Virus record (IMG/VR): IMGVR_UViG_3300036845_000049
Coordinates: 1-64,000 of that record
Length of the DNA: 64,000 nucleotides
Strand: one strand, 5' to 3'
DNA from: a virus
Part shown: in pieces, positions 3,001 through 64,000 of the stretch
Layout: each line of letters starts with the position of its first letter
Numbering within the stretch: position 1 is the stretch's first letter
Translations under genes and position numbers: made by a program
Notes under the pieces: generated by a model
Databases searched by the model: none
Told to the model about the DNA's origin: nothing
What the model saw: the letters and a program-made list of their open reading frames with translations, nothing else

Positions 3001-4461
3001 CGGGTAGACCATCGCCTCCCGTGAGTTGCCCGGATCGAGCAGCGCGGCGTGCTGAGCGGCCAACGTCTCGGGAGTTTCCGGTACGACCGCCCCCACATCC
3101 TCGCGAGGCGGGGCAGGGACCGGGGTAGGACCGACTTCCGTGGGTGGCTGGGGGGGTGATGGCTCCCCGGTTGTATCGCCTGCTGGCGGTGCCTCCCTGC
3201 CCGTTTCTGAAGGGGGTGGGGTAGGTTGTACAACCGGAGGTTGTTCTACAGAGGGAGTTGGTGGTTCACTTACCCTCGGGGTAACTGGCTCGGGATTTAG
3301 AGCCGACGTTTCAGCAGGGCCAACCCCTTTATTCTCAGCCGTTGGGGGCGGTGGGCTAGTGTCAACCACTGGCGTTGCGGTAGCGGTCTTAGTTCCGGGC
3401 GCATCTGGGTCCAGTGAATATCCGCCAGTTGTGCTGCCCGACACACCCGACTTTTGCGTCATATCAACAGGCTTGCGGTAGTTCCGATCTGATCGTGTCG
3501 GCTCGGCGCTTACACCGCCCTCAGGCAGGCGTGTCTTACCATGGAATGCACCACCTGCCAAGCCGACACCCGCGCCGAATAGCCCTTGCCCGACACCAGC
3601 GGTTAATAACTCATCGGGGGTTGCTTCCTCGCCTATCCCTTCTTTTGCCTGCTCATGGCCAGTGACGGCGGTTTGCACCGCCCCCAGCGGACCCATCTCT
3701 GCCGCGCCACGACCGGCACCAACAACGGCGTTCGCCCCCCTGCCAGTTACTCTACGGGTAAGGAAGTTGCTGCCGCCCAGCGCCGCATCTTCGGCGGGGC
3801 CAACACCCAACTTCGCGATACCGGTAAGCTCTACGCCGCCAGCCGCACCAAGCGCGCCGCCTATGAGCGCGGACGGGACGCCGACATTGAGCGCTGTGTC
3901 TTGCCCCAATTTAGTCTTAGCTTGTTCCTCAGTCATCCCCGACTGACGGTAATCCCGGTAGGTCGGGTTCTTATCCATCAGATCGATATCGTTGGTATTT
4001 TGGATCGCTTCCTTGTTCTCGCTAATGGCGCTGCCGCCACTGATCGCCGCGCCTGCGGCTGCGGACAGGGGTAGCCCAACTCCCGGTATGAGCGCGGGAG
4101 CAACCATTGCCGCCGTAGGGGCCGCTTGCTCTGCGATATAGACCGGCCAAGTCTGCTCGGCACCCGGCGTCATCGCCCCACGGCTCGCCGTCGCCGACTG
4201 CCGCTCGGCTTCTGCTTCCTCGGTCTGTCCAGTGACTTCGGCTAGGGGTGCGCCAACGCCGCCATGGAAACCCGCCGCCAGACCATGACCGATATCGGCT
4301 GCGTGCCAGTCTGGCGCATGGGTATATGGAGTATATCCACCACTCTCCCCCGTGCCGAAAGACCCAACCAACGGGTCATCGGTAGACGACGCGGCGACGC
4401 TCGTATCCGTGGCACCGCCGAAGTGCCCAACTAGCGGATCATCTGTTTGCAGATCAGCCAT
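1..4461 (-). CDS. Giant virion-associated polyvalent protein, partial (C-terminus beyond window)
   Basis: The frame is open from an ATG at 4461 to base 1, giving 1487 residues with no stop. The N-terminus repeats a DDPLVGxFG motif and carries Gly/Ala-rich hydrophobic stretches (about residues 115-140 and 195-220). A long Pro/Glu/Thr-rich linker and an Ala/Glu/Arg-rich helical region follow. Near residue 1025 is LHEGFHA, an HExxH zinc-metallopeptidase motif. The start overlaps the stop of the upstream virion gene by 8 nt (ATGGCTGA). Giant multidomain proteins of this kind in podoviruses are usually packaged and injected. That role and any peptidase activity are inference. The leftward gene entering at the right edge (62757-64000) may be its C-terminal part. 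Confidence 0.8.
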   Translation of the reverse strand, partial: MADLQTDDPLVGHFGGATDTSVAASSTDDPLVGSFGTGESGGYTPYTHAPDWHAADIGHGLAAGFHGGVGAPLAEVTGQTEEAEAERQSATASRGAMTPGAEQTWPVYIAEQAAPTAAMVAPALIPGVGLPLSAAAGAAISGGSAISENKEAIQNTNDIDLMDKNPTYRDYRQSGMTEEQAKTKLGQDTALNVGVPSALIGGALGAAGGVELTGIAKLGVGPAEDAALGGSNFLTRRVTGRGANAVVGAGRGAAEMGPLGAVQTAVTGHEQAKEGIGEEATPDELLTAGVGQGLFGAGVGLAGGAFHGKTRLPEGGVSAEPTRSDRNYRKPVDMTQKSGVSGSTTGGYSLDPDAPGTKTATATPVVDTSPPPPTAENKGVGPAETSALNPEPVTPRVSEPPTPSVEQPPVVQPTPPPSETGREAPPAGDTTGEPSPPQPPTEVGPTPVPAPPREDVGAVVPETPETLAAQHAALLDPGNSREAMVYPKGSQPIDIVDKKAFGQVKLPDGRIVQFDKNGPSGLSVAKIRDYAKTDRLNEALQLGPVSKDEALSRVAEGETPVAVTERTPAGAEAKAAAGTETTAPAQVADLEASKTPGNVVSVERPEDVVAARQAEIAQPRQVVQPEVANPLGKAAPPTGRILEAQDEASVRARNEAAFQEAQAARSVQDQLRAKEAAKQAAAAQEAGVKGRVHTAKVDQAKVANDNIGAQRIVDKYPRQEPTPNWRNDEYSRAKAMVNEAKAAGIKIPDTFPEGHPHNDAMLKLREAADLTATKYPKPEAYARFLDREHLIDTGRGQEAFAVRRNEGALGTGSVGLEGGAEGVRAKGGAVDEEGKPQEAPEEARAEAAYEETPTEHAAAGGEEEHVSLAGPTDAERQAQRMAERRAESEAMREAARTEDKAPKAAVGFQTAVKKSRAIKRQELEDEPHHVMVTNSEGNPVGVEAQRSTTLSDALDEHYDNKNYSPEMRPMMDRLTDAIDRRAGDKSTYYVSHDDMLKTGERVRGLYDPNENHILLNADKMTHDTVLHEGFHAATSEGLKDSELKSLMGRLQDEMGVKGDAEEFLTRLMTDNKLQDQFKGEKVSPELARDIGIPKWRKATMWEAALNIIRRALGLGPRDVGAVEAAMALSEKAMWKKDPGMAMEAGARSLGLKFQKMEPEEAIHERANDAQEAAVKPSSFWNSDAAQAVRTNSEQKWFNAKAKASATDALRIDNEHMFGDKIEANPMRRAQEGLLKQEKMIQNALQAHDPLMQRMMNLKRTNPNGLDRLVTLLSESANFNVHPDEALGVGRNEYIKPNPKGKFGIDSNVEHHEAIQAHERLSDDFDKSTEEERSLFSDLRDALMEEGHKTVKADIETFSNGLRENFANNEGLQEALKTPEANRTPSEIKQVERYNAITKVLGGDKLTEGDEADKFNNDPHIEMLRDLRGRLKQEGPYFPGSRKGDYVVNAEHELPKAPKAVSVKDNEVTFANKQDAYDYRQELANVTS

Positions 4462-7400
4462 AACGTTGCATCGGACTTGATGGTATTGCCCCGCCCCGCT
4501 GCCAGCCTAAAGCTTTAGAGATGGGCGTTCCTGCGGACTGCCCAGCGTTATCTGGAATAGGGGGACGGTAAGGATTATTCGCCACAGCCGCCGTATCGGC
4601 TTGGTTGCGAGTTGCTAACGTAGCTTTCGCCCTTTGCATATTGAGAACATTAGCCCAGTCATTCCTTGGTAAGACAACCGTCTCGCGTGATCCATCGCTA
4701 GGACGAGTAATCGTCACTGCATAGCGCGGACCATAGCCATCCTCTGGCACGGCGGCAGTTGTCGCCGTATAAGAGTTAAGCACGAAACCGCGCAACGCAT
4801 CAGCAATAGCTGCTGGTTCCGCATCGTGAGTATAGCGATACCCATTAACCAACGCGTTGTCCATAACCATGCGTTGGTTCCGGTCGCCAAACTCACTGTT
4901 GTAATGGTCATCACGGAATTTCTGATCAGGGTTAACAGTCCCGTCAGGCATCGTTGAGGCTTGATCCTTATAAAAGTCTGCGGGTTGCTTACCCGTAATT
5001 TTACCATTCGCGTCAGTTTGCGTCGAGAACGTTCGTTGTACATCCGTATCAGGGCGCGGCGCACGCGCAGCGTGTTCTTCCGCCGTCTTGACAGCGAGCG
5101 CCTTGGCGTCGGTATCATACTGCATACGTTTATCCGCTTCACCCTGCGTAAACGCCTCGCGTTTATTGGTTTGTTCTTGTGTAAACGTTTCGCGTTTGTT
5201 AGTCTGACCCTCAGTGAACTCCCTCCCCGCTTGGTCACGTAGGGTCTGGAACTGCTTGCTGCGAATGTCTCTGTTATCGGCTATATCCTTATTCATTGCG
5301 TCTTGGGCGCGTTTAGCCTTATCGTTGTACTGCGCCAGCGGACCCTTCTCGTAGGCTTGTATCGCTTGCGTTTGCTCCTGCCTACTCAGTCCTTGCAAAT
5401 TCGGTGGGGCTGGGCGTGCCCAGTCCTGTCCATCAATATGAATGTAACCCTCCGGAGTCTGATACCGAGAGCGTATTGTCGCTGCATCGCTAGCGTTCGT
5501 TTGCTGTTCCTGATTGTTTATCCTCGCCGCAATGCTATCGAAGCTAACATCCTGCCCATCAGGGGTAGGGGCGGTGGGGTTGGGCCGGTCGGCGGGACTA
5601 GGTGGCGGCGGTAGCCCCCCACCATGTCCAGTCGGACCTTTACCCCCTGCCCCAGTAGGCGCAGTACCGTCGGCGGTTGGCGCAGCGCTAGCGCTATCTG
5701 GTGATGCTGACGCAGTTGCGGACGCAGTTGCGGACGCTGGTGTAGGTGTTGGCGCAGTTGCAGAACTAGCTGGGGTTTCTGTTGGTGATTGATCTGTTTT
5801 ACCCACGCGGGTAACTGGCTGCAACTCGTTACCGCCAACAGCATTTGCCACCCGCGTCTCACTAGCAGTCTGCGCGTCCTCTTTACCTTGAGCAATTACA
5901 TTCTTCTGTCGGTTCGTCGCCATGTCCCTGAATGTTGGGTCGTATTTGCCCGCCTGTTCCTCCAACGCGTCCCACTGCATCTGCCCAGTGCGGCCACGGT
6001 TAGTCGCATATTGGAGTATCGCCGCTGCCGAACCTTTATGTTGCCATAGCACACGCCCATCCATGCCCTTGGCTTCCACTATCGCAGTGCCATCATCATT
6101 CAAGTGGACATGGGTCTGCCGCCCATCCGGCACTGCATCAGAGGCGTGGTTGATATTATCCACGGCCCCTTTCAAATTGCCATCATATAATTGTTTAGCA
6201 GCTTCTTCGGCAAACTTCTGCGAGGTCTGCACCGAATATTGCAGAATACTAGCAGCCATTCGGCCTGCACCCTCACTGTTACCTTGGCTGAGCATATACC
6301 GATAAGTACCCTCCATCACTGCAATCTGCCGCTCAGCATCATTAAGCGAGTGGTTAGGATCAATCGTATTGGCTATCTCGTTATGAATACTAGCGTCCAT
6401 ATCGCCAACATTTTTCCCCTGCACAAACCCCTGCCGGTTCCCCTGCGTCTGTGGATCACGAGCGATAGCCGGTGCGGCCTGCGCCCCACCAATACCAAGG
6501 TGATCCCCTAGCCAATGAAGTCCATCACCAATCGCGCTAATCAAACCCTTCGATGGGTTGCCCTGCCCGTCACTAATCTCAGGCGTAATTGGCGAAACAC
6601 TGGATGGACCGGCTTGACTGGGCGCAGGTGTTTGGTAGTCCGCCGGAGTGTAGTATCCATCTTGAGCCATTGATGGCGGTGCATTCGCCGCTGCGTCACG
6701 TTGATCTAGCAGCGCAGTCGTCATCTGGTCGTCGCCAGCCGTCTGCCTTTCCTCACTATAATCGGGAGCCGTATCACCAGCAGATACGTCACCGCCATCA
6801 TCGAACGCAACCGATCCGCCCCTAGCCATCGGCAGGGAGGGGATTGCCCCTGCGCCGAAAGTTGGCGCTGACGTTTGGCTGACGCCCTTGCCCACGGGTG
6901 CGCCTGCGGCTGCATAGGTCGCCGGGTTGTAGTATATGGGAGGGATCGCGCCGCCGCCAGTTGCACCGGGGGGGGCGCCAGCCACGGAGGGGCTAACCCC
7001 GCCGCCATCGTCGTATCGGTTTACCCTGCGGGTAATTGGGCCGCCCTTGCGAGACAGGATTTGGGTGGTTTGATCTTTTGGGTCAGTGCTATAGTTCGTA
7101 CTGCCGGAACTATCGGTGGCAGACCCAGTGCCAGTCGTGGCGATATTATTGGGGTCATAGGTCTTAGCCAGTGTGCCGGTTGTCGGCACGCCGGGAATGC
7201 CAGTCGTCGTAGTGCTGGTCGGGTCAATACCAGTTATATCCACCTGAGGGGTGGTGATAGTCTGCGCCGAGGCACCGGGTTCGTTAAGAGGCGTAGGCGC
7301 GGCAGGCGTGGTAGTAGGCCAAACGGCATTGGGCATCAGCGAAAGCTGGCTAGCCGGATAAGTTGGATTAATCCCTTGAGCGTTTAGCGCAGCCGTTCCT

Positions 7401-10400
7401 TGGTTCGTTCCAGCCCAAGCTTTACTTTGTTGGTCAGCCCATGCTTGCTGATTGGGCGCAAGTTGGGCGTAGGGCGTACCCATCCACCCGCCGGTCGCCG
7501 TAGGCCCGTTGTAGGTGCCCCCCCAAATCGCGTTCATTACCGCTGTAGCGCCAGCGGGGTTAGTCGTCAATCCACCACCGGTGGCAAACGCAGTCGCAGG
7601 AATAGCCCCACCAGCGGCGAACCGCTTGATCGGCCCACCCTTGCGGGACAGGATTTGCTTCGTGGTGTCCTTATCGTCAACACTATAATTCGTACTACCT
7701 GAACTATCGGTGGCGGACCCACTGCCGGTCGTGCCGATCACGTTGGGGTCGTACGAGTTCGCCGTAATGACGTTCGATACACCGGGGGTGCCGGTCGTCG
7801 TAGTCGAAGTCGGGTCCGTCACCGTCGTACTAGTGGGATAATTCGTGATGTTCTGCACCGATGGCGGGTTGACGATTGTCGGCGAAGGCGTAGCCGCCGC
7901 AGGCGCAGCCGCCGCCGCAGCCGCTGGCGTAGTGGGGTAAGAAGCTGGGTTGTAGTACCAACTCGCCCTCCCCCCTCCCGCTATCTCGTTAGCGTTTTGT
8001 TCGTTATACCATTGTTGCTGGGCTGGCGTGAGCGCGTTGATATCAGCGGTTGTTCCCGGCCCACTCATAGTGGCAGCAAGCCCACCAGTGGACGTTGGCT
8101 GGGCCGCAAGCCATTGCGCCGAGTTCCAAGGCTGATACCCTAGTTGCGAGTTCGCATATGCGCCTACACTAGATAACCCACCCATCGACGGCTGTACCGT
8201 CGTAGGCGCAGGACTTCCCACCGGCCCTTGGTATGTCGTATAGGGGGTAGGCGAAGTGGTCGGTTGCCAACTGGTAAGCTGCACGCCGCCAGCGCCAGCA
8301 TAAGCCATTGTCGGGCGAGAAGGGAGCGCCCCACCCTTGGCAAGACTTACCCGCTGGGTAATTGGGCCACCCTTCGCCGCGCCAAGCTGCATACCCAGCG
8401 TCATATCGTCCATATTGGGCGCACCCACCGCGAAGTCTTGGTCATCCGGTCGGCGCATAGCCACCGGAGGAGGCGGGGGTGCTGGCGTTGGCGCAGCTTG
8501 CGACACTGGTGGGTTCGGCCCCCACAAGTGAGAAAGATCAATCGCCGTCATCTGCCTAGGCTGACCGCGAACATTTGGACCTTGGTTAGGCGCATCGATC
8601 TGAACAAAACGCGGGTCTTGTGCTGGCGTGGCGGGGATTGCACGCGTTGCGCTTACCGGCGTTGCATCGGGTGATGGTTTATTGGCTTCCACTGAAGGAG
8701 AACGTGCGGTCAGATCGGGCCGCGCGCCATCGTCCGCTCGTGTTGCCGGACCCATTGGCAACGTCGTACGCCCACCACCTTCCGGCCCCATCTGTGGGGT
8801 TGGAGGCTCAGGCACCGACGATGGTGTTGGGCCAACGTTAGGCGGTGCGCCCGTGCGTTGTGGCGGCCCCATTACTGGCCGGTCAGGCACGGACGAGGGC
8901 GTCATGCCGACGTTGGGCGGCGCGCCCGTACGTTGCGGCGGCCCTAAATCAGGCCGCTCCGGTATCCCTAGCTGACGACCGCGTGCAGCAATCGATGGCT
9001 CATTGCCCAACGTACTGTCGTCAATCGGTGCAGCTTCGACCGGAACGCGGGTGTCACTTTGATCGCTAGTGTTCCGCTGCATGTCGCGAGCGCGCGCCGC
9101 TATCGATGTTTCATTGAACGGCGTATCGTCAGTATCGGAAGGCTTAGCGTCGGGTGCTGCACGATGCTCCGCTAATGTTCTTGCCGCCTTCTCTGCGCCT
9201 GCCTCAGTAACACCATCCGCAGGTCCCGCCACTTGATAGGGGGTATGCAAAACTGGTGGCCCTTCGGGAGCCGCTTGAGCAACTTTATCCTTATTCGGTC
9301 CTTTCGTTGGTGTCTTAGCCGTCGTCGTGGGGGAGGCCAATTCAAAGTGCGGCTTATCCGGGTGCCGCCAGTCATCACCCGCGTTAAGTTTGACGCCTTC
9401 TTCCTTGGCGGCGGTTTTAATCGCGGCGGTGACCTTCGACTGCGCGGCGGGATCGAATGTAACCCGGTTATTACCATCAAGCGCCCATAAGTCGGCAGCG
9501 TTGCCCTTCATATGAACAGACGCGTCCCCGCCATCCTTAGAGCCGACTTGTGACCACCCTACGCTCTTAGCCCAGTCCTGATCGACAGCGGAGCGCTTGC
9601 CATTACCCAGCACGAACTTCAAGTCTGGGTTATCAGCGCGAGCGCGGGCGATAACCTTCTGCATATCGGGATTGATCTGCTTGAGGTTCGCCGCCTCATT
9701 GCCGACTGGATCGGGGTTCCAGCGGGTAAACATTGGTAGTTGATCACGGCCCTTGTCATCCTTGACAGGGATGTTGGCGTAGACGCCATTCGGGCCAGTG
9801 TTTGCGCCACCGCCCTTATCAACTGTTTGTTGGTAACCATCAGTGTTCATCGTAGCAGATTTCACTGATGGCGAAGCGGCGGCGGTGCGCGTAGCTGTGT
9901 CGCCGCCATGCACCGTCGCATACACGCTAGACGTGGGTGTACTGTTCAGTAATACGTCACTGCGCCCACCGCTCTCCTTATAGCCCCCGGCGCGCTCGAA
10001 ATGCATCGCCGCGTAAGAGCCTTCCTCTGGTGACGCGGCGTTCTTAAATTGCTCCTTCGCCCGCGCCTGTTCAGGCGCATCCAAATCTGCGCCAGCGTAA
10101 TATTTCAATTGATCGTCAAAGTTGGTATTGCCCGCAATCGGCGTCTTTCGGTCCCCCAACCATTGGGCGATGCCGAATGCTTTTGAGCTTGGGTTGACCG
10201 AAGTCGGCCCATCCGGTGCTTCCCGCGTCATACGCGCAACCGCACCCGCCGCGCCATACTCGGAAAACTTGCCGCTGTCCATTAAAACATTATAGGCATG
10301 CTGTTGGTTTTCCGGCGTCCAGAATTTACCCGATACTCCACCGCCATAACCGCCACCACCACCACCACCACCACTGCCGCCCTTATCCCAATCCCTCCCT

Positions 10401-10600: not shown

Positions 10601-10617
10601 CTAACTTACTCTAAGGG

Positions 10618-11928
10618 TTAACCGGGGTATGCAGGGATAGCGCCGCCCATTGCGTGCGCTGGACGGGATACAAATGATGGATGCTGCGGGATCGCCGCCG
10701 TAGGCTCCCCGCCTATGTCATTACGCCCTGCAAATTTCTGTTGCTCTTGCCGCGCCTTATCGATCTGCCCTGCAAAATATTGATGACCCTTCCACACCGC
10801 TACGTCTTTTGGGATCACGAACTCGTGAGCGGTCAGCATCGCAGGCACGTCGTCGGTCGCCACGCCCATGCTTGGTGATGCGTGAATAGGCACGGTGCCC
10901 CCCGGTGTCGCCCCTGCGTCGCCACCACGATTGTATACCTGACGCGGCATCATCGGCGCGGAAGGAATGCCTGTCGCACCGCCGCCCTGATCCGGGGTTT
11001 GTTGATACGAAGCCATACCCGGCACAGGAGGAAGCGCTGGCCCGCCGTCAGCATACCCAACCGCACCACCCTTAGCGATCCTCATAATCCCCGCGCCAAG
11101 CACACTACCCAACGCTGAGCCTAACCCGCCCATCTCGCCTGCGCCAGCTTCATTGAATGCAGCCTGCGATTGGTTGTACCCATTGACAGCGCCAACATAG
11201 CTGTTCATGGCGTTGGTGCCAGCGTTGAACCACTGGCTAGGGGCCGTCATCGCTTGCGAACCTGTCGATAAATTCCCCTGCGCCGTACTACCCGCACCCG
11301 ACGCTGCGTTTGCCCCCGCCGATCCTGCTTGCGTACCAGCGCCAGTCAATGTGCCAACAGAATTGACCAGCCCCCGCCCAGTATTAATCGCGCCGCTCTC
11401 CAACTCCATCTGTTGGGCGCGTAAATTTTGCGCCGCCGTCGTTCCAGCGGCGGCTTCCGCCGCGCCAATCATCGGCTGTGCACCTGTGAACAATGACGCG
11501 TAACGCGCAGACCCCGGATTGATACCATAACCTCTAAGCGTCTCGGCAGCGGTATTAACGCCCTGCATCCCTTGCTCACCAACACTTGCCATGGCTTGCG
11601 CACGCGCGGTCGCCATCGCCTGCGGCGACGCCCAATTTTGCGCTTGCTCAACGTAATTCGCTTCAAGCGGAGCGTAATATTGCTGATATTCCTGCCACTG
11701 TGCTTGGCTCTCAGCCTGCGATTGCGCCATGCTCGCTTCTTGCTGCTGAGCTAACGCAATCTGTTGCTGCTCGGATTGGTCCATGAGCGGTTGCTCTTGG
11801 TTCCAAACCTGCTGGGTCCACTGCAATTGCTGCTCACCAAGCGCGTACGCCTGATTGGCGGCCTGCGCAGACGCCATTGCCTGCATCATTCCAGACTGGT
11901 CGGCGCTACCGCCCTTATCGCTACCCAT
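10618..11928 (-). CDS. Structural protein of the internal/tail block (436 aa)
   Basis: The first 110 residues are Gln/Ala-rich and helical. A small-residue Gly/Ala region follows, then a C-terminal segment with PAMLTAHEFVIPKDV, a motif common in phage virion proteins near tail and internal-protein genes. The C-terminus ends in a GGAIP motif like the neighbouring giant proteins. A degenerate copy of the genome-wide palindrome lies directly after its stop. Exact function is unknown; internal or ejection protein is most likely from position. Confidence 0.55.
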   Translation of the reverse strand: MGSDKGGSADQSGMMQAMASAQAANQAYALGEQQLQWTQQVWNQEQPLMDQSEQQQIALAQQQEASMAQSQAESQAQWQEYQQYYAPLEANYVEQAQNWASPQAMATARAQAMASVGEQGMQGVNTAAETLRGYGINPGSARYASLFTGAQPMIGAAEAAAGTTAAQNLRAQQMELESGAINTGRGLVNSVGTLTGAGTQAGSAGANAASGAGSTAQGNLSTGSQAMTAPSQWFNAGTNAMNSYVGAVNGYNQSQAAFNEAGAGEMGGLGSALGSVLGAGIMRIAKGGAVGYADGGPALPPVPGMASYQQTPDQGGGATGIPSAPMMPRQVYNRGGDAGATPGGTVPIHASPSMGVATDDVPAMLTAHEFVIPKDVAVWKGHQYFAGQIDKARQEQQKFAGRNDIGGEPTAAIPQHPSFVSRPAHAMGGAIPAYPG

Positions 11929-11955
11929 CCAAGTTACTCCGTGGGTAAGTTCCCA

Positions 11956-12893: not shown

Positions 12894-15200
12894 TTACGCT
12901 GCCTTAAGCTCTTTCACTGAACTCGCTACCTTGAAGAACCGCACGCCTACCTGACCCTCTATTTGAAACTCCCATAGCTCAGCTTTGAAGTCGCCGGGAA
13001 TTAACAACACTTCTCCCGACTTCTGTATCTCCCGCACCACAATTTCATTGCCATCGGCGTATATGCGAATGATAAGGTACTGGGTGGTGGGGTCGAACGT
13101 CTGCGCTTGGTCGATATTTCTTACCCCAAGGGTAATTGTGACCTCCGGTGGGACTTCGTACAGGACCATGAACGCTTTGAACTGCTGCGGCGCGGTGAAC
13201 CGGAAACGCTTGGTTTTCCACTGCCAACTACGGAGCGTCGTCGTGCCGGGTACACCTATAGGTGGGTTCCACTGCATGATCTGCTTATTGGATTGCAGGA
13301 CGAATATTTGCCCGGACAATTCATCTGATAAAATATTGAGAACTTGAATAGTCCCAATAGCACTGGTGCGCAAGTAAGTAAATGGCGTATTCGTATCACC
13401 ACTATCCATCACGAAGCCATTATACCCAAGCGTATCAATTGGCTCGCTTGGGATTGGCGCACCTTTAATGAACGTTGCGTAAGATGAGCCATACCGCGCC
13501 GACGCCCACTGCGGCGGTAGCAACGAGTAATGAAATTCTTTCTCGTACACTGCTGTAGTTACGTTTTGCGTACCGCCTGAGTTAAGCAACTGGACGCCAT
13601 TAGGTGACGCATAATACGCGCCCTCGCCTGACGCCACGATGGACCCACGTGAAATACATGGCTCGTTGGCGGTGATCTTGCCGATGGTCATCGTGTCTGG
13701 GGTCACACCAGTGGCGATGAAAGGAGAACCTTCGGTAATAATATTAAGCGATGACCCGTTCGCGGTCAGCCCAACAATCGGATAGTCCACTGTCAACGCG
13801 TATTGTGGCGGCCATGCGTGCGGAAGGTAAGCCGCTGAAAACCACACTTCGCGCTCATTGGTAAACCCGGCTGCAATGCCGTTCGCCATCATCACCACGC
13901 CCTGCAATCCTGCCGGAGGAGGAGCAAAGCCTATTGTGCTAAGCTGTAGGTTCGCCGTAATCGACGCGTCAAGCGCACTATCGTGGATCGTCACTGTACC
14001 CGTTGGGTTAATCGGAACCTCGGTGACTTGGTAGTACGTCGCATTGCCGGAACTATCCACCACCGTGCGATAGAGCCGGTAGTGGCCGGGGTTCATAGGC
14101 ACGTTCGTGTTATAGCCAGCCGGTGGCGCTGGAATAACCACTGTCCACGTGCCGGTGCCATCGCCAGACGCGACTGTCGCCGGAGATGGTTCACTTTCCT
14201 CCCCGAAGTCACTTATATAGGTATAAACGTAAGCCCGCGTCTCAGGCAAGGCGCTAATGAACTGGATCGTATCGCCAGCTTGCACGCCCGCTGCTGTCAC
14301 CGCTGAGCTTAGGGTGACCGTAGTTCCACCAATTGATGCAACAGTCGTGCCGTTGGTAATCTGGTTGGCGTTATCAAACTGAAAGGTGTCGCCCGCGATA
14401 ACCGCCCCAACAAGGTTGATGCTGATCGTAACGGTAGTCGCCGTAACCGCCGCCACCGTCGAACCGGTGAACACAACTGCCGGGTTAGACGTACATTTGA
14501 CCGTCATTCCCACGGCGATGTTATTCGGCGCAGTGCCAGTACTAGAAAAATTCAGCGTTGTTGTGCCAACCGCAGACGCCAGCGTCGTCGCGGCGCTCAA
14601 CCGATGGTCGGTCAAGTCGAGGACGTTCATGCCCGCCAGCACGCCCGCAGAAACAGGCGACGAGCCAAACGTCAAGACTGTGCCGCCAACCGCCGTAACA
14701 GCGCTCGTCGTCATGATGATCGACGTTGCCGGTGGCGTCACTGTAACTGGTACGGTAGGCGGCTTGATCCCTAACGTATAGTTGGAAGAACCGCTTTGTA
14801 ACCGCGCCAGCGTGTTGTAGACTGGCCCCGGTGACGACGCAGGCCAGTTTGGATTATCCCCCATAGAGTTATATTCGTCACTCGGGAAGAAATAATACCT
14901 ATCGTACGTGTCGCCAACCGTAGGGTTACGAATAGTCGTCAGATAGGGATCGGGGAACTCCAACCACAACGAACCCGCTGACGAGAAGTCAGGCGGGTTC
15001 GCGTCATTCAGTGGTATACGATAAATAGACTGGCTGTCGTCGTACTGCACTGACGCTACAGCGTGCGCCGCCCGGAACCCACGAATTTGCCCACGGTACA
15101 GCCATGCGTTATTGCAAAGTTGACTATTATTGTCAGGAAGTAAAACCGGGTCCCTTATAGGAAGCATCCCACTGAAGTCAGCGATCATCACAGTCGGCAT
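12894..15200 (-). CDS. Tail nozzle/tail tubular B-like protein (768 aa)
   Basis: The start at 15200 is preferred over a longer frame because AAGGAG lies 7 nt upstream and ATG overlaps the endonuclease stop (TGATG). The opening ADFSGMLPIRDPVLLPDNNSQ followed by NNAWLYRGQIRGF resembles the start of podovirus nozzle proteins. Residues about 170-340 are Thr/Val-rich and repetitive, like an inserted beta domain. FTNEREVWFSAAYLPHAWP in the middle is also typical. It would form the distal tail tube; this is by resemblance, not search. Confidence 0.65.
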   Translation of the reverse strand: MPTVMIADFSGMLPIRDPVLLPDNNSQLCNNAWLYRGQIRGFRAAHAVASVQYDDSQSIYRIPLNDANPPDFSSAGSLWLEFPDPYLTTIRNPTVGDTYDRYYFFPSDEYNSMGDNPNWPASSPGPVYNTLARLQSGSSNYTLGIKPPTVPVTVTPPATSIIMTTSAVTAVGGTVLTFGSSPVSAGVLAGMNVLDLTDHRLSAATTLASAVGTTTLNFSSTGTAPNNIAVGMTVKCTSNPAVVFTGSTVAAVTATTVTISINLVGAVIAGDTFQFDNANQITNGTTVASIGGTTVTLSSAVTAAGVQAGDTIQFISALPETRAYVYTYISDFGEESEPSPATVASGDGTGTWTVVIPAPPAGYNTNVPMNPGHYRLYRTVVDSSGNATYYQVTEVPINPTGTVTIHDSALDASITANLQLSTIGFAPPPAGLQGVVMMANGIAAGFTNEREVWFSAAYLPHAWPPQYALTVDYPIVGLTANGSSLNIITEGSPFIATGVTPDTMTIGKITANEPCISRGSIVASGEGAYYASPNGVQLLNSGGTQNVTTAVYEKEFHYSLLPPQWASARYGSSYATFIKGAPIPSEPIDTLGYNGFVMDSGDTNTPFTYLRTSAIGTIQVLNILSDELSGQIFVLQSNKQIMQWNPPIGVPGTTTLRSWQWKTKRFRFTAPQQFKAFMVLYEVPPEVTITLGVRNIDQAQTFDPTTQYLIIRIYADGNEIVVREIQKSGEVLLIPGDFKAELWEFQIEGQVGVRFFKVASSVKELKAA

Positions 15201-15667
15201 CAAATTCTCCTTTTCAGGTATTTGATCGCCCGACATAAAAGTTCCACGCTATCCTTTGCTCGCCCTAACAATACATTGCAATCATTGCATAGTAGCCCGC
15301 GCACCTTTTCAGTAGCATGATCATGATCCACTTTAACGTCTTTCAACTCTAATGGACCTTCACAGCACGCACACTTGCCACCCTGTTGCTTATACATCCT
15401 CAGGTATGTAGACGCCTCAAGTCCGTACAGAGACCTTAGCGCCCACTCCTGTCTTCTTGTCAATCCACTTGGCTGGACTATATTGGCGTTAGTCTTATTC
15501 CGCGTATTATATCGATCTCTGTTTTTATGGTAAATTGCTAGACTTCTAGCATTGGCACATGCTTTGCATTCAGAGAATAGCCGCCCATTCGTTTTGACAA
15601 AGTAATCCGCATACGGCTTCTGTATGCCACATACAGTACATGCCTTCTGTAGGGCGACTACACTCAT
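15200..15667 (-). CDS. Endonuclease VII-like HNH endonuclease (155 aa)
   Basis: The C-terminal half carries the recombination endonuclease VII signature: KCACCEG, VDHDHATEKVRGLLC and CNVLLGRAK, with zinc Cys pairs and D114-H115-D116-H117. An extra CxxC pair set (C10/C13, C34/C37) forms an N-terminal zinc ribbon. Family members resolve branched DNA, but stand-alone copies among structural genes often behave as homing endonucleases. A second member lies at 48621-49178. It is inserted between the fibre-side genes and the nozzle gene. Confidence 0.85.
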   Translation of the reverse strand: MSVVALQKACTVCGIQKPYADYFVKTNGRLFSECKACANARSLAIYHKNRDRYNTRNKTNANIVQPSGLTRRQEWALRSLYGLEASTYLRMYKQQGGKCACCEGPLELKDVKVDHDHATEKVRGLLCNDCNVLLGRAKDSVELLCRAIKYLKRRI

Positions 15668-15684
15668 GAAAGTTACTCTGTGGG

Positions 15685-15975
15685 TTACTTTTGGCTAGAG
15701 TGTTGCTGTATCACCTTGCGCCCAGTTTCGTGCTCAGCATCATGACGATGGGCATGCTGTTCAAGATGTTTCTTCCCGGCCTCCATCTCCGCACGAGTGT
15801 TATCGGCCAGTCCCTTTGGAGCGTTCTCAGGCGGGGCCATGTCGGGTTGAGGCCCATGACCGGCTTCGGTTGAGTTTGGGTTGGGTGGCGTGTTTGGTTG
15901 CCCGTGAATATTCTTTCCGGCGTTCGGGTCGGTCGGTGGTGCGGGCGGAATAGCTTGCTTCGGGGGTTGCGCCAT
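15685..15975 (-). CDS. Pro/His-rich hypothetical protein (96 aa)
   Basis: The first half is Pro/Asn-rich and disordered. The second half is a charged His/Glu/Lys helix (ending HSSQK). There is AGGAGAAAAATA just before the ATG. It is located between the endonuclease VII gene and a small fibre-linked gene. No family recognised. Confidence 0.6.
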   Translation of the reverse strand: MAQPPKQAIPPAPPTDPNAGKNIHGQPNTPPNPNSTEAGHGPQPDMAPPENAPKGLADNTRAEMEAGKKHLEQHAHRHDAEHETGRKVIQQHSSQK

Positions 15976-17487: not shown

Positions 17488-17505
17488 ATATTTTTACTCT
17501 CAGGG

Positions 17506-23055: not shown

Positions 23056-23149
23056 TTTTACCCATAGAGTAATAAGACGGTCCCGGCGTACACGGGAGTA
23101 TTCACGCCGGGACCTAGCAGACGCTACACGCAACGACAACAGGCAGGCG

Positions 23150-25731: not shown

Positions 25732-25745
25732 ACTTACCCAGTGGG

Positions 25746-26837: not shown

Positions 26838-26867
26838 GATGATACCTCCATTTACCCATAGGGTTGC

Positions 26868-42281: not shown

Positions 42282-42309
42282 GTAAACCAAGCAGTAACCC
42301 GGAGGGTAA

Positions 42310-42654: not shown

Positions 42655-42743
42655 GCGTTAGTCACTGTCCCCGTGAAACCTAACAAACCACCGTTTATAT
42701 TTTCTCTTACCCGTTGGGTAACAACTTTAGAGTGGTAACCGAC

Positions 42744-43926: not shown

Positions 43927-43939
43927 CCCGGAGAGTAAG

Positions 43940-45036: not shown

Positions 45037-45055
45037 CTTACCTACGGGGTAAACC

Positions 45056-47543: not shown

Positions 47544-47578
47544 TGTTTACGGTCAAGGGGCCTATATAGGTGAGTAAA

Positions 47579-51690: not shown

Positions 51691-51884
51691 GTAACGATGC
51701 ATTAGGTGAACGGTTCGCTGACGCCATTACGAGGGTATTAGAGATATTACCGAAGGATGGAACGGAAGGACATTTCCCCTGCCCCGCCTGCGGCATAGGC
51801 GAAGTGCACTGGCTGCGTGTCGGCAGGAAGAAGCATTTGCGGATCGGATGCACTACACCAGAATGCGTAATGTTGATCCAATAA
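51687..51884 (+). CDS. Zinc-finger protein (65 aa, GTG start)
   Basis: GTG 51687 and the helicase TGA are both inside the palindrome 51680-51694. CPACGIGEVHWLRVGRKKHLRIGCTTPEC is a Cys4 ribbon, similar to zinc-finger accessory proteins of phage replication genes. Function unknown. Confidence 0.6.
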   Translation: MSNDALGERFADAITRVLEILPKDGTEGHFPCPACGIGEVHWLRVGRKKHLRIGCTTPECVMLIQ

Positions 51885-52703: not shown

Positions 52704-52737
52704 CTTACCCGCAGGGTAAACAAGAAAGGACAATAAC

Positions 52738-53946: not shown

Positions 53947-54009
53947 CCTTACCCATAGAGTAAAAGGGCGGGGCGAACCCGCCCATCTCTGCTTACTGGG
54001 GAGGTAAGT

Positions 54010-56964
54010 ATGAGCGACATGTTGCGGTTCATGAATATGGTTGCGCCTGTGAGCCAAGAAACATGGTTCACAATACATCACCGTACCTTCGTGCCGGGTA
54101 GGGTAGACCCTATCTTCCCCGGCAATGCCCACAAGACGATCAAGACAGCGATGAATGACGCCCAGTATTGGGCGCAGAGAGGCCACTGCGTTTACATATC
54201 GCAGGGCATATACCGCAGCGCAGGGCCGGTAACCGGGATTTACCCGAAGGCTGATCGGACGTACCCTAATCTCGTTGCCTGCAAGAACCTCTACATGGAC
54301 GTAGACGTTAAGCCAGACGGTTATCCAACTCACGACGCAATGAAGGCCGCAGTTTTTGGCTTCCTTAAATGGTTCGGCTTATGGCCGACCGTCATCGTCG
54401 GCAGTGGATCGGGCGGGTGGCATTTATACTGGACCCTACACACTGCGATTGACGAGCGCGAATTTAAGAACCTTGCAGGGCGATTGATCAATGCCGGTAC
54501 AGAGTACGGCCTGCTATTCGATAAGCAATGTACACGTGATGCGACGCGGCTTCTCCGGGTAGCTGGGACGTGGAACTTCAAGCATGCCACTGATGACGTG
54601 CCAGCTTCGTCCGTGACGTTGGAGCATAGCAGCGACGGGGTTCATATCGATGTTGATACAGGGCGCAAGCATTTGGAGCGCTGGCCTACCGCAGTTACCC
54701 AAGAGAGTAAGCCGCATGTAGGGAGCGTAGACGCACACGGATTACCACTAGACGAGAACGCCGACCTGACTGGGGGTATGAAGAAAGAATATGCGCCCGT
54801 ATCTATTGATGAAGTCGCCGTTCACTGTCCTTTTGTTAGAAACACTCTGGATGCTGGGGGAGCTAATCTGGTGGGCGACCCGCAGTGGCATACGGTCGTG
54901 GCGCTCGCGTGCCATACCACGGACCCACGGGGAACGGCTCACCGACTGTGCAACAAGTCGCCTCACTACACCGAGGAAGGAACTGACGACAAACTTACCA
55001 CCGCGCAGTTGGCGAGGGAGCAGCGCTCGACTATTGGACCGCCGAAGTGCGCCACCATCGCCATCGAGCGAGAAGAATGCAAGACTTGTCCACATTTGGC
55101 TCTTGCTACCACTCCATTGGCGGTTGGTTTTAAGCGGACCAACGGTCACGCTTATCAACCCTTCACCGCCGCCCCCGGTGCACAACCCATAGAACTGCCT
55201 TGGCCTTACTACCAAGACGCCACCAGTTTACAAATATTCAAGCCACCAGTAGATAATGGTAAGGCTAACGAGGTTGGTGGGCTGGTGTTTGAATACCCTA
55301 TCCTGCCGGGTGCCATGCTTGAGGTAGGGCATCCATCGTACCAATTCATCCTGAACACTATGCAGGGAGGTAAGGAAGTGACCAAGCAGTTCGATAGTTC
55401 CATCGTTGCTGACAATATAACTTTTGCCAGAGCGTTCTCCGCTGCGGGGTTGCCGCTCACAGTAAGGCCAATCGACATGCCTAGGCAATTCATGACTAGC
55501 TACATCAAGCAGCTACAGCATAAGCCCGAAACCCTTATCACTGTGCCCGCCTTCGGTTGGTCGCCGGATGCGAACGGAGACATTGGGTTCGCCTTCGCTG
55601 GCGAGTATGTCTCCCCTGCCGGTACGTCTAGATGCGCTCACCCGTCGGGTGGTACGGCGAACTACAGGGTAATGGGCGACGAGCAAGTATGGAGGGATTT
55701 AGTAAAGCTTATCGTCACCCCTGACAGACCTGACTTATCGTGCATGATCGCGTCAAGTTTTGCTGCGCCGCTGGTGGGTATGACCGGCGAGAATGGGTTA
55801 CTCATGGGGGTAACTTCGCCTGCATCCGGCATAGGGAAATCCACGGCGCTGACGACAGGGCAGGCGGTATGGTCAAATCCGGGTGGCGTCGGTGGGCTAA
55901 GCGACACCGTGAACTTCACGTTCGCTAAATGTGCCGAGCTTAGACACCTGCCAGTATTCTATGACGAAATTAAGGGTGACCAACAACTAAAGGATATGAC
56001 GAAAATTGCTTTTCAGTTAACAAGAGGACAGGAGAAGGGACGCTCAGATCGTTCTGGTAAAATGCGCAAGGTCAATGAGTTCAAGACGCTGTGCGGGTAT
56101 GCCGCCAACGGCTCCATTGTTGATGGCGTACGCGAGGAAGATAAGGGTACTGACGCATCGTGGCTGCGTATCTTCGAGATGCGGGGTATCAAAATACCAG
56201 AAACATCTCCCAACTTCGCGACGAGTGTTCAAGACTTACTCAATGGGTTAGAATTGAACCACGGTGGGATCGGCAGGAGATACGCAACGTACTTGGGTCA
56301 GAACCATGCCAAAACTTACAAGATGTTGGCTGCGTTCAAGATGGATATTGCACAGGAGCTTCGTGCAAGCCCAAAGGTCGAACGGTTTTGGGTAGCAGCC
56401 ATTGCGACGACGATGCTGGGCGCTTATCTTGCCAATGCATTGGGTGTCGTAACGTTCCCAGTGGATGACATGAAGAAATTTATGTTCTCTGAGTTCCATC
56501 GCATGAAAGATGCGATGGCTGAGGACCCAAGCGACCTGACTAAAGAACGGGCGTTAATGAATACGATTGGCGCGTTCCTTAACGAGAAGCAACCCCGTAA
56601 CATGGTGATCCTCGACAAGACGTGGAGTCAACCGCTGCGCCCACCTAAGGGATACGCTAATATCCTCAATGAGAAGCCTGATCAGAACTGGGGCAAGCTA
56701 GAAGCACAAGTATCAGGTGACCCGCTCACTCTACGTATAGCTGACATCGCCCTAACCGAATGGTGCGCCAAAGGTAAACGCCCGAAGAACGTTCTTGTCG
56801 ATCAGATGCGGAGCGTGATGGGGGCTAAGATGACAAGCGGCATCATCGGGTCTGGCTCACGCAAGGGTGGAGCTAAAGAGAATATATGGCTTATCAACGC
56901 CAAGCCGGGTACAGAAATAGCAAGTTACCTCGAATACACGATCAACTATAAATTCCTGCCATAG
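54010..56964 (+). CDS. Primase-helicase, AEP/PrimPol plus DUF927-like ATPase (984 aa)
   Basis: Residues 1-220 resemble an archaeo-eukaryotic primase: MDVDV (D97, D99), GSGSGGWHLYW (H138), RLLRVAGTWNFK. A Cys-rich linker (CNKSPHY, CKTCPHL) follows. From about residue 570 is a helicase: Walker A SPASGIGKST (near 605), Walker B FYDEI (near 650), RGQEKGRSDRSGK as sensor/arginine region. It would unwind and prime DNA. Palindromes at 54695 and 55798 lie in frame. Confidence 0.82.
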   Translation: MSDMLRFMNMVAPVSQETWFTIHHRTFVPGRVDPIFPGNAHKTIKTAMNDAQYWAQRGHCVYISQGIYRSAGPVTGIYPKADRTYPNLVACKNLYMDVDVKPDGYPTHDAMKAAVFGFLKWFGLWPTVIVGSGSGGWHLYWTLHTAIDEREFKNLAGRLINAGTEYGLLFDKQCTRDATRLLRVAGTWNFKHATDDVPASSVTLEHSSDGVHIDVDTGRKHLERWPTAVTQESKPHVGSVDAHGLPLDENADLTGGMKKEYAPVSIDEVAVHCPFVRNTLDAGGANLVGDPQWHTVVALACHTTDPRGTAHRLCNKSPHYTEEGTDDKLTTAQLAREQRSTIGPPKCATIAIEREECKTCPHLALATTPLAVGFKRTNGHAYQPFTAAPGAQPIELPWPYYQDATSLQIFKPPVDNGKANEVGGLVFEYPILPGAMLEVGHPSYQFILNTMQGGKEVTKQFDSSIVADNITFARAFSAAGLPLTVRPIDMPRQFMTSYIKQLQHKPETLITVPAFGWSPDANGDIGFAFAGEYVSPAGTSRCAHPSGGTANYRVMGDEQVWRDLVKLIVTPDRPDLSCMIASSFAAPLVGMTGENGLLMGVTSPASGIGKSTALTTGQAVWSNPGGVGGLSDTVNFTFAKCAELRHLPVFYDEIKGDQQLKDMTKIAFQLTRGQEKGRSDRSGKMRKVNEFKTLCGYAANGSIVDGVREEDKGTDASWLRIFEMRGIKIPETSPNFATSVQDLLNGLELNHGGIGRRYATYLGQNHAKTYKMLAAFKMDIAQELRASPKVERFWVAAIATTMLGAYLANALGVVTFPVDDMKKFMFSEFHRMKDAMAEDPSDLTKERALMNTIGAFLNEKQPRNMVILDKTWSQPLRPPKGYANILNEKPDQNWGKLEAQVSGDPLTLRIADIALTEWCAKGKRPKNVLVDQMRSVMGAKMTSGIIGSGSRKGGAKENIWLINAKPGTEIASYLEYTINYKFLP

Positions 56965-57028
56965 AAGTTACTCTATGGGTAATATGGAAAATCAGAAACA
57001 CTTGTAGAAACTTTCTAATTTACCCTTC

Positions 57029-57287: not shown

Positions 57288-57586
57288 AACGAGCTATCAT
57301 GGTTTTATTACTCTGTGGGGTAAGTAATGCCAGCGCTGACGCTCGCTGCTTTAAGCTTTGGCATTACCCATGGCCTCAGAATTGTAATGCGCATGGGGTC
57401 TATCTACGCACGTCGAAACCCAGTCGGGCTATTCTACCTGCTGTATTTCACCCTCCTGTTAGCGTTCCTGATCCTGTTCCTGATATTCTTCTGCCGGACA
57501 TGAGCGCAACATGGGGCGGGGCGATGGATAGCGAGCTTGAATTGCAAATGCAACGACAAAGAGCGATTAGATCACTCGAAAAATAA
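57284..57586 (+). CDS. Secreted protein (100 aa, GTG start)
   Basis: MKRAIMVLLLCGVSNASADA is a signal peptide. The mature part has two Cys and a Pro-rich middle, ending in a helical SELELQMQRQRAIRSLEK. A Cys in the signal region could allow lipoprotein processing, but no lipobox is clear. Located at the end of the right-arm genes; a spanin-like role is only a guess. Confidence 0.5.
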   Translation: MKRAIMVLLLCGVSNASADARCFKLWHYPWPQNCNAHGVYLRTSKPSRAILPAVFHPPVSVPDPVPDILLPDMSATWGGAMDSELELQMQRQRAIRSLEK

Positions 57587-57679: not shown

Positions 57680-57817
57680 AATATTGTGGCTTATACGGGC
57701 TGGGGTTCGTGGCCTATTTTCCCTTTCAGAGTTACCCAGCGGGTAAGCCTATTCCCGTCGCATGTGCGACTGGGGTCCGGGGCGGCGGGGTCCGCTCACT
57801 TCACATGGGGTAATAGT

Positions 57818-58601: not shown

Positions 58602-58745
58602 ATGTTTACTCGGGTGCTGGAAGCCATAGGCGCTTTCCTAATAGTGTGCGCGGGTATGTTCGCCATCTTGGCGTGGCGCGCACCGTATATACCCGATGAA
58701 GATGACCTTGAACACGAAGATCAAAACGATTTACCCGATGGGTAA
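58602..58745 (+). CDS. Small acidic-tailed membrane protein (47 aa)
   Basis: MFTRVLEAIGAFLIVCAGMFAILAW is one transmembrane helix, followed by an acidic tail (PDEDDLEHEDQND). Its stop is inside palindrome 58731-58745. A second frame from ATG 58586 (37 aa, with the better GGGAGG) overlaps it, so translation could be coupled. Confidence 0.5.
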   Translation: MFTRVLEAIGAFLIVCAGMFAILAWRAPYIPDEDDLEHEDQNDLPDG

Positions 58746-59518: not shown

Positions 59519-59538
59519 GCAACTTACTCTATGGGTAA

Positions 59539-60697: not shown

Positions 60698-61417
60698 TCA
60701 TTCCGTCCCGTCGTAGACCACTATTCCATTAACTGAGACAACAACTGTCCCCGTTGCTGTAATATCTACTCGTCCCGACATTTCTGGTAGCGGGTCGGGC
60801 GGTGGCGGCGCAGGCTCTGACGTTTTGACCAGCGCAGGCTTAAACTTGTTATAGTACCCAGCGATGGTGCTTGCCTGATCAGTGCCGTTGACGGTGCGCC
60901 GTGCGTTAACTGCGTCCTCGGTGGTAGAATTGAAGTATTTGGGCAGGCCCACCCCGGTGAACCACCCCACCGTCATGCCGTCATACATCACCAGCGCCGA
61001 TGGCTCGTTCTCTAGCATCTTGTCTGGATACTGATACAGCGGGACATCGAGGCCATAATCTTTCTTAAGTTGATCTTGGCCCATCTGGTAGTTGGTGTCC
61101 CACGTCAGTTGAACGTGGCCGCGCCCATAATACACGTTATTATAGGGGCCGGTAGCCGTCCAATACTTACCCGGTGGGTTACCATACGGCTTGCCGCCGT
61201 TCTCTTTTACCGGAACCATCTTCTGGCCGGTTTCATGGTACGCAGTGGCGAAGCAATAGGCAAGCCAATTCGTGCCGTCGCGCGGGTTAGGCTGCTCGAA
61301 ATATTTCTCCCAAACGTCAAGCATATAGTTCATGCCATCCACTTGGGACTGACTAAGCGTACCGCCGAACAGGGATGACCGGACGGCAGGGAAGAATTTG
61401 TCGCGATCATATGGCAT
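60698..61417 (-). CDS. Endolysin, GH19-type (239 aa)
   Basis: Residues 1-190: FFPAVRSSLFGGTLSQSQVDGMNYMLD, AYCFATAYHETGQKM (catalytic Glu), YYGRGHVQLTWDTNYQ and PSALVMYDGMTVGWFTG are the GH19 chitinase-like lysin motifs. A Pro-rich linker and a short C-terminal beta segment follow. No signal peptide, so a holin is needed. It would cut glycan strands. Confidence 0.85.
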   Translation of the reverse strand: MPYDRDKFFPAVRSSLFGGTLSQSQVDGMNYMLDVWEKYFEQPNPRDGTNWLAYCFATAYHETGQKMVPVKENGGKPYGNPPGKYWTATGPYNNVYYGRGHVQLTWDTNYQMGQDQLKKDYGLDVPLYQYPDKMLENEPSALVMYDGMTVGWFTGVGLPKYFNSTTEDAVNARRTVNGTDQASTIAGYYNKFKPALVKTSEPAPPPPDPLPEMSGRVDITATGTVVVSVNGIVVYDGTE

Positions 61418-61450
61418 GACTTACAACCTTACAGTTACCCTTAGAGTAAA

Positions 61451-62470: not shown

Positions 62471-62491
62471 TGTACCTTACTCCATGGGTAA

Positions 62492-62770
62492 CTATTTATC
62501 AATAGGCACTGAGTAGCCTTTTTGCCCTTTTCTCCATGAGCGGTTTTTATGCACGCTCTCCACACGAGAGTTACCCATAGAGTTACCCCCGCCCCCAGCC
62601 AATGGGTTGATATGCGCCACGTCGCCCGTTGGGGAGTGGCCTAACCGCTTAGTTGTCTGCGCACGCAATTGATTGCGTTCCTCACGGTGCTTGATCTGCT
62701 CGGGCGTGTCTTCGTAGCGTTCCTCTTTCTTGTAGTCGCGACGTTGAGGGGGGTTGCTACTGGTAGACAT
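62492..62770 (-). CDS. Hypothetical basic protein (92 aa)
   Basis: MSTSSNPPQRRDYKKEERYEDTPEQIKHREERNQLRAQ forms a charged helix; GDVAHINPLAGGGGNSMGN then SWRKGQK. It resembles small phage proteins with HNH-like GDxxHxxPL motifs but has no complete site. Overlaps the giant gene by 14 nt. Confidence 0.6.
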   Translation of the reverse strand: MSTSSNPPQRRDYKKEERYEDTPEQIKHREERNQLRAQTTKRLGHSPTGDVAHINPLAGGGGNSMGNSRVESVHKNRSWRKGQKGYSVPIDK

Positions 62771-64000
62771 TGTATTCCTCCGCGTTGGCGCGCTGCCGTG
62801 GCGTCATTGGCTTACTAGCCCTACCAGCCTGCCTAGCTTTGAGGATATGCCCTGCCGTGATACGGTTCTGTGGGTGGGCGAGGTTCCATCTATTCGCCGC
62901 CGCCCGGTCCCCCTGCCCCGCCGCCGCGATGGCTTGCTTACGTTCGGCGCTATCCTCCTTGATCAGCCCAGTCTCTTTGTTGTACAGCGCCTCGCGCGTC
63001 GGCGTGCCGCCCGCCGCCTTAATGAACGTCTCATAGGGATCAAGTGGCGTCATGTCGGGTTGCCCGTGCTGACCCGGCTTGCCACTCTCATTTTCTGCAT
63101 ACGCCTTGGCTATATCGGAGAACAACCTGATCGGGATAACACTGGGTATGCCATGCTTGTAATCACCCTTGAGTATGCTGTTGACGCCATCCCATTCGTC
63201 CTTGACGTAGCCCGTCCCAGAACCAACCATATCAAACAGGAAGTCTTTTGGCGACTGCAACGCTTGGTTCTTAACCATCAAGTCGTTCAACCCAATGCGC
63301 GAACTGGCGCTCAGCCCTGCCGCGCCAAGAATGCCATCCATAACCAAATGACCACCGAACTTACCCATAGAGTTAGTCGTCGCCCTGCGCGCCGCATCCT
63401 CATATTCATCCCAGCTACGGGTCAACCCAAGAGCATGGGACATCTCAACTGCCAGCCGTATAGGCTCTGGCACGCCAGACGCCACCCCTGCTAGCGCCGC
63501 CGTGGTGCCCATGGTGGACACGAGCGATATGATGGCAGCGCGCTGAATTTCCGGTGTCTCCCCCCTGATCGCGTTGTATACATTCTTCGCCAGCAACCGG
63601 TATATCATCATGGGCACCGCACGGAACTGCATCGCTGCCCGTACAACAGGGTTCTTTAAGAACGATGCACGGTTACTCGCAGAGTAAATGCCCAATGTCG
63701 GGCTAACTGTATCCTTCGCATAACGCACCGCTTGCGCATGATGTGCGACACTCTGCGCAAGCGTTTGAGGCTTGCCCATCTTCGCGCGCTCTAAATCGTA
63801 CGCCGACATATAGGTGGCCACACGATTGGTACTGTCGACCGCGTGGCTCATCTCATTGCCGATGTTCTGTAGATACTGAGTGGCGCGATCCACCATGCCA
63901 GTGCGGTCGAAGCTCTTCCGGTAGTCCGTGATAATCGAACCTAGATGAGGAGTTTCCCTGCCACTATCGAAAGCTTTAAGCTGGTCAGTCGTAGCTCCGT
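62757..64000 (-). CDS. C-terminal part of a giant virion protein, partial
   Basis: The frame is open to base 64000 (no start in window) and gives 414 residues. Contents: RASFLKNPVVRAAMQFRAVPMMIYRLLAKN, hydrophobic SLVSTMGTTAALAGVASG, then SPKDFLFDMVGSGTGYVKDEWDGV and a basic C-terminus. These are typical of the ends of giant phage polyvalent proteins. Its partner is probably the 1-4461 ORF. Two palindromes in frame (63361 degenerate, 63673 exact). Confidence 0.7.
   Translation of the reverse strand, partial: GATTDQLKAFDSGRETPHLGSIITDYRKSFDRTGMVDRATQYLQNIGNEMSHAVDSTNRVATYMSAYDLERAKMGKPQTLAQSVAHHAQAVRYAKDTVSPTLGIYSASNRASFLKNPVVRAAMQFRAVPMMIYRLLAKNVYNAIRGETPEIQRAAIISLVSTMGTTAALAGVASGVPEPIRLAVEMSHALGLTRSWDEYEDAARRATTNSMGKFGGHLVMDGILGAAGLSASSRIGLNDLMVKNQALQSPKDFLFDMVGSGTGYVKDEWDGVNSILKGDYKHGIPSVIPIRLFSDIAKAYAENESGKPGQHGQPDMTPLDPYETFIKAAGGTPTREALYNKETGLIKEDSAERKQAIAAAGQGDRAAANRWNLAHPQNRITAGHILKARQAGRASKPMTPRQRANAEEYNVYQ

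Follow-up and report, generated by a model that had tools for sequence, protein, structure and literature searches.

Drifting palindromes along the genomes of a podophage family, with a candidate reader protein

Why should a phage carry the same short palindrome from one end of its genome to the other? The question is raised by a stretch of viral DNA, hereafter the window, which comprises 64,000 bases of the 65,815-base IMG/VR virus record IMGVR_UViG_3300036845_000049 and in which the word TTACYC-N3/4-GRGTAA occurs 54 times exactly (55 times in the whole record). In 100 dinucleotide shuffles the mean was 0.03 copies and the maximum 1, in agreement with the original prediction, which had been made by reading the letters alone, expected about 0.03 chance copies and put the exact ones at 53. 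The spacer has three bases in 40 sites and four in 14, and no exact-arm site in the window has a spacer of 0–2 or 5–10 bases; the flexible spacing described earlier is thus borne out, with one N3 site more than the 39 then counted and the same 14 N4 sites. By arm class, 22 sites are CCC/GGG, 13 are CTC/GGG, 3 are CTC/GAG, all as first counted, and 16, rather than 15, are CCC/GAG. A weight-matrix scan found 28 further variant sites that score above shuffled DNA, bringing the array to about 80 copies along the genome. In most variants the arm lying 5' with respect to transcription reads TAACCC or TGACCC. The half-sites are symmetric in the matrix, with a strong TTAC, a strong C and a choice of C or T at position 5, and the spacer carries zero information.

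The array is real and is under purifying selection. When the window is compared with its relatives G001, G002 and G003, identity is 97, 84 and 87% in the arms, against 78, 57 and 74% in the spacers and 78, 70 and 70% in the flanks. Among the covered sites, 18 of 23, 11 of 16 and 10 of 18 are intact, where neutral change would be expected to leave about 4, 1 and 1, and at many intact sites the spacer or the C/T position is altered. The positions are largely shared between relatives, so that place is conserved while spacers drift, a pattern that the original prediction had proposed to look for. The sharing extends across different consensus types: in 18 genomes, 93 of 271 orthologous gene ends carry a site, compared to 14.3 expected.

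Where do the sites lie? About half of them fall within called genes, and the remainder lie between genes or across gene ends. In the window, 20 of 84 sites are near a stop codon (4.0 expected, with gene calls made in this analysis). In the Rhizobium phage RHph_TM3_14A, 15 of 54 are found within −18 to +30 of one (4.2 expected, with the GenBank gene calls), and 35 of the 54 are intragenic in a genome whose genes make up 88% of the DNA. In most contigs, the sites are spaced more evenly than random placement would give. The window variants deviate mainly in the 5' arm (23 versus 2), which would suggest sites oriented with transcription. However, one-arm deviations counted over 14 genomes (5' versus 3' in the transcription sense) amount to 53 versus 0 at stop codons, 64 versus 19 in gaps and 68 versus 64 within genes. 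The apparent bias arises because stop codons are written into the sites (TAACCC), which accounts for most one-arm variants, and an orientation of the array as a whole was rejected. These observations suggest that sites are placed where coding permits. They would occupy the places of least coding constraint, in short gaps and across stop codons, which fits an array in which even coverage outweighs exact position.

Relatives were found via their polymerase, portal or TerL and scanned for palindromes de novo, without a preset motif. Most of them, dozens of phages, have a dispersed palindrome, each with its own drifted sequence: TTACYC-N3/4 in G000–G003; TTACTC-N4 in G005, G007, G010 and G011; a TTACT-type N3 word in G009 and G012; TTACCY-N4 in G013 and RHTM3; TTACC-N6 in G014 and G016; GTTACCG-N3 in G018; T-N-ACTC in G004; TAACTGC-N2 in G015 and G023; TCACTA-N4 in G008 and L238; AACTAT-N2 in L192; and TACGCCC-N1 in L243. 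Densities range from 0.3 to 1.6 sites per kilobase (kb) among the contigs. The outer span is 15–16 base pairs (bp) in most relatives, and the centre-to-centre geometry has therefore been kept despite the drift of the letters. No such family of palindromes was found in eight reference phages whose polymerase or portal marks them as related (KPP25, HMO-2011, phiM6, RHph_N3_19, CRP-1, phiA008, V45iii and Rollin), nor in the stretches read of G020, G030, G031 and G032, and the window's own pattern has 0 matches in seven reference phage records. A distant relative, G006 (L139–L141), has 13 copies of CTAACA-N1-TGTTAG, all within about 10 kb, and lacks the protein p35651 discussed below; this repeat is probably of a different kind.

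What reads these sites? The palindromes are most likely genome-wide binding sites on double-stranded DNA for a dimeric, sequence-specific protein encoded by the phage. Each half-site (TTACYC) would be bound by one subunit, and the dimer would accommodate a spacer of 3 or 4 bp. That the half-sites are read separately may be gathered from the arms, which are independent at position 5. The reader is presumably a phage protein, and its task would involve the phage genome as a whole, which it might fold, mark or silence, and not just a few promoters.

The best available candidate for this reader is p35651, a protein of 393 amino acids encoded at 35651–36832 on the + strand. Wherever the contig of a palindrome-bearing genome extends over the gene's usual location past TerL, the protein is present, and it was not found in relatives without palindromes. 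Before whole records were checked, both palindromes and protein were seen at 27 loci, neither at 10, and 7 were discordant; the checks resolved 2 of the 7, giving 29 with both and 10 with neither. The 5 loci still discordant bear palindromes and come from four contigs, none of which spans the p35651 region in full. The protein evolves fast: members of the wider family share about 16–37% of their residues with that of the window, and the homologue in RHph_TM3_14A is QIG67493.1. Its conserved domain (residues 85–252) is all-helical with a confidently predicted fold (predicted local distance difference test, pLDDT, 88; predicted TM-score, pTM, 0.82). A site stands 3–14 bp past its stop codon in most genomes.

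Several points weigh against this picture. Rigid dimers do not usually tolerate a spacer of variable length. The candidate has no Pfam match, no fold relative in the PDB and no recognizable DNA-binding fold, and the net charge of its conserved domain, about +2, makes that domain no more than slightly basic. If only the well-supported branches of the TerL tree are counted, the association comes down to one independent pair. Among the 19 gene families profiled across the genomes, the TerS-like gene and several structural ones are just as clade-specific as p35651. In G026, finally, strong palindromes are present and p35651 is absent in 53 kb, on a contig that ends about 4 kb past TerL. That p35651 is the reader is thus a tentative proposal. 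More doubtful still is the full scenario, in which a virulent podophage family would fold, mark or silence its own DNA via a new all-helical protein family, p35651, bound to 20–85 palindromes, with specificity and sites having changed together many times.

Could the palindromes act in RNA instead? A transcript would form a 6-bp stem with a loop of 3–4 nucleotides, a suitable length, and many sites stand directly past stop codons. However, the arms vary independently over 84 sites (CCC/GGG 40, CCC/GAG 21, CTC/GGG 19, CTC/GAG 4; p 0.18, the trend running against pairing), the sense strand has C–A mismatches (23) about as often as U–G wobbles (17), and a stop-codon change in one arm is seldom matched in the other. 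TTTT follows the site in 0 of 84 cases, 16 of the 55 hairpins have an energy close to zero, there is no Rfam match, and the N1 and N2 spacers of some relatives are too short for loops. Since the arms do not covary and the uridine tract is missing, hairpins or terminators are very improbable; where the original prediction had offered a hairpin or a flexible reader, a flexible dimer fits better and a hairpin is not supported. It had also drawn an analogy to stoperators. On a reading of this kind, the sites would form a repressor array that blocks transcription genome-wide and silences a prophage, a carrier state or a superinfecting genome, as in Cluster A mycobacteriophages. This explanation overlaps with the silencing version of the preferred one. 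The analogy holds for the distribution, with sites genome-wide, often at the ends of genes or in short gaps, and the drift of the consensus among relatives would suit it too, but the sites are symmetric, the intragenic ones show no orientation with transcription (the 68 versus 64 above), and the majority are away from obvious promoters. No integrase was recognized among the window proteins scanned, either. A TerL scan of 84,980 species gave no close prophage relative, only weak relatives on bacterial contigs (identity no higher than 40%, with the top matches on short contigs of metagenome-assembled genomes), and thus no sign of lysogeny. A stoperator-like array is, on balance, rather unlikely.

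The sites might, on the other hand, belong to the host, as targets of one of its proteins, for example a repressor or a nucleoid protein. The phage might take advantage of that protein, or the host might silence phage DNA with it, and the drift of the consensus might then track changes of host. Against this, the 115 alphaproteobacterial genomes sampled have 31 matches in total, at most 4 per genome and no more than a reversed control pattern, and nine genomes reached through distant TerL matches have 0 or 1 each. The sampled chromosomes thus do not use this word. The motif scan of bacteria and other phages suggested by the original prediction accordingly turned up no array in the alphaproteobacterial genomes or in the reference phages. 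The one host known in the family is Rhizobium, for RHph_TM3_14A. Sites for a host protein are improbable, as are self-marks for a phage DNA enzyme, for instance a methyltransferase, or a nuclease able to recognize or spare its own genome in a Chi-like manner. Self-marking would be consistent with the even spacing through all modules and with the RecB-like and endonuclease VII family nucleases among the phage proteins. However, 12 specified bases with two spacer lengths are atypical for a modification site, no methyltransferase was recognized among the window proteins scanned, and Chi-like sites are asymmetric.

Returning to a dimeric phage protein as the reader, some further ideas about p35651 were tried and not retained. 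Residue 176 seemed to covary with half-site base 2, being Ala or Gly in TAAC and TNAC genomes, but there are exceptions (Ser in a TCAC genome, Ala or Gly in two TTAC genomes), and the link is only suggestive. The motif SKLRxFIxLG had hinted at a tyrosine recombinase, yet the p35651 profile matches neither MrpR nor phage integrases. Autoregulation through a site cluster at its own promoter was dropped, as no consistent cluster exists across genomes. In the control region of one relative (L113 8874–8981; G010 26874–26981), four palindromes are clustered, three of them 21 bp (two helical turns) apart, and this tandem trio lies about 1.6 kb upstream of p35651.

Other proteins fare less well as readers. 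A second candidate is p47570 (47570–47890, + strand, 106 amino acids), which has an OmpR-type winged helix by eye only and no Pfam match. It occurs in most, though not all, palindrome genomes; a weak match is also present in the palindrome-less G030, it was not found in G016, and it was set aside. A palindrome overlaps its stop codon in several genomes. The Cro/CI-type helix-turn-helix protein at 43600–43926 (+ strand), with an HTH_31 match, had been named in the original prediction as a protein to try, but it is a poor candidate, being undetected in the palindrome-bearing G004, G013, G014, G016, G017, G018 and RHTM3, and its recognition helix varies among TTACCC genomes while the site is constant. 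It is followed by a winged-helix-like protein at 43940–44395, and the pair stand together in ten genomes of the family. In G008 (L143), whose TCACTA-type contig has yielded no p35651, a protein that looks ParB-like by eye is encoded at 25137–26168 (contig coordinates), near the end of the contig.

The exact sites were located by a pattern search and the variants by the weight matrix; all are given here in window positions, with the strand recorded as ".". N4 sites lie at 5799–5814, 34191–34206, 37427–37442, 37704–37719, 37911–37926, 39426–39441, 44331–44346, 45689–45704, 46269–46284, 50254–50269, 50992–51007, 54695–54710, 55798–55813 and 57308–57323. Those of the N3 type are at 3270–3284, 3747–3761, 7021–7035, 8347–8361, 11934–11948, 13121–13135, 19386–19400, 20313–20327, 21691–21705, 23058–23072, 24519–24533, 26513–26527, 27791–27805, 29384–29398, 30433–30447, 31343–31357, 31827–31841, 33607–33621, 33783–33797, 34686–34700, 36879–36893 (directly beyond the 3' end of the p35651 gene), 38531–38545 (with a drifting spacer in relatives), 40005–40019 (sharing its end with a gene's stop codon), 40471–40485, 41508–41522 and 51680–51694 (both overlapping a stop codon), 41858–41872, 42707–42721, 47876–47890 (ending with a stop codon, at a position conserved family-wide), 48414–48428, 49742–49756, 57732–57746, 58731–58745, 61435–61449 and 63673–63687, and five more are directly 3' of a stop codon, at 52705–52719, 53949–53963, 56968–56982, 59524–59538 and, for a gene on the − strand, 62477–62491.

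Six of the variants include a stop codon: 10606–10620 (gene 10618–11928, −), 15673–15687 (15685–15975, −), 17494–17508 (17506–19041, −), 25734–25748 (25746–26024, −), 39674–39688 (38567–39676, +) and 43924–43938 (43600–43926, +). Three are weak, at 19122–19136, which overlaps the variant at 19134–19149, at 26852–26866 and at 49453–49467, and one, at 35869–35883, is within the p35651 gene. The others are at 560–574, 667–682, 1649–1663, 2564–2578, 35162–35176, 38713–38727, 40762–40776, 42295–42309, 43049–43063, 43571–43585, 45038–45052, 46618–46632, 47337–47352, 56236–56250, 61167–61181, 62571–62585 and 63361–63375.

The genome that carries these sites encodes a podophage-like gene set, in which the − strand carries the structural genes and the + strand those for replication: an internal virion protein (12894–15236), the major head protein (23150–24145), the portal (27843–30485), TerL (32058–33740, − strand), DNA polymerase A (45056–46969) and a primase/helicase-like protein (54010–56964), together with a SNF2-type helicase, a PD-(D/E)XK nuclease and an endonuclease VII nuclease. 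Its closest cultured relatives are the Rhizobium phages RHph_TM3_14A, TM27A, TM27B and TM29, and KPP25 and HMO-2011-type phages are more distant. In the RHph_TM3_14A annotation a "putative integrase" (L094 42239–45322) is a homologue of the window's primase/helicase-like protein. The TerS-like gene (30574–31104, +) and TerL are on opposite strands, and the strand of TerL relative to its neighbors varies among relatives. Between the divergent gene blocks, about 1.5 kb (33740–35278) are without a long gene and contain several palindromes; this region is possibly a control region or origin. An ATPase (38567–39676) and a DUF2201 VWA protein (40136–41518) form a pair conserved across the podophage family and in G006.

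How does the array compare with known systems? In the KorB/ParB operator arrays of plasmids, dispersed palindromes are bound by a dimer, much as is proposed here, but no ParB domain was recognized by Pfam among the window proteins scanned, which did not include every small open reading frame. The stoperators of Cluster A mycobacteriophages likewise number in the tens, genome-wide and often in short gaps; they are asymmetric and transcription-oriented (as stated in PMC4351075), whereas the half-sites in the window are symmetric, with an orientation bias only at stop codons and gaps. In the temperate phage SPbeta, the SPBRE elements are bound by MrpR, a repressor of the recombinase (tyrosine-recombinase) fold (PMC10516654). 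There, too, a phage genome carries a regulator's site repeatedly, with a motif of 15 bp, but p35651 aligns with neither MrpR nor integrases, and the comparison is relevant only if p35651 is the reader. The T1-like phage TLS, which is virulent, has 21-bp repeats upstream of start codons (PMC11447400), and these likewise have no known function; they are direct and oriented, in contrast to the palindromic sites of the window.

No paper on palindromes of this podophage family was found in the literature searched, and the nearest known case is the palindrome of Cluster O mycobacteriophages such as Corndog, described in 2015: 34 copies of the 17-bp TGTTCGG-N3-CCGAACA, partly intergenic and about one third intragenic, whose function is unknown and for which the authors predicted a dimeric DNA-binding protein that acts otherwise than on transcription initiation (PMC4351075). 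Both arrays consist of a dispersed palindrome of about 15–17 bp with a 3-bp spacer in tens of copies (here 54 exact, 40 of them N3), at positions mostly common to relatives, in phages that are not obviously temperate. The window array is not a member by sequence or by phage kinship, however. Cluster O has a fixed N3, an AT-rich spacer and invariant arms, where 14 sites here are N4, and PMC4351075 describes neither drift among distant relatives nor a candidate reader. The podophages add another family to that of Cluster O, one that is unrelated to it and much more diverse: its consensus words number at least seven, and it has cultured members (RHph_TM3_14A and its near relatives) in which the question can be tested. 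The drift of the consensus amounts to a set of natural specificity swaps, and co-occurrence points to a candidate reader. If p35651 does bind the sites, it would represent a new DNA-binding fold, and this would be the first explained phage-wide palindrome array in apparently virulent phages. What sets the array apart from that of Cluster O, and is new here, is the concerted drift throughout a family, the spacer of three or four bases, and the candidate reader.

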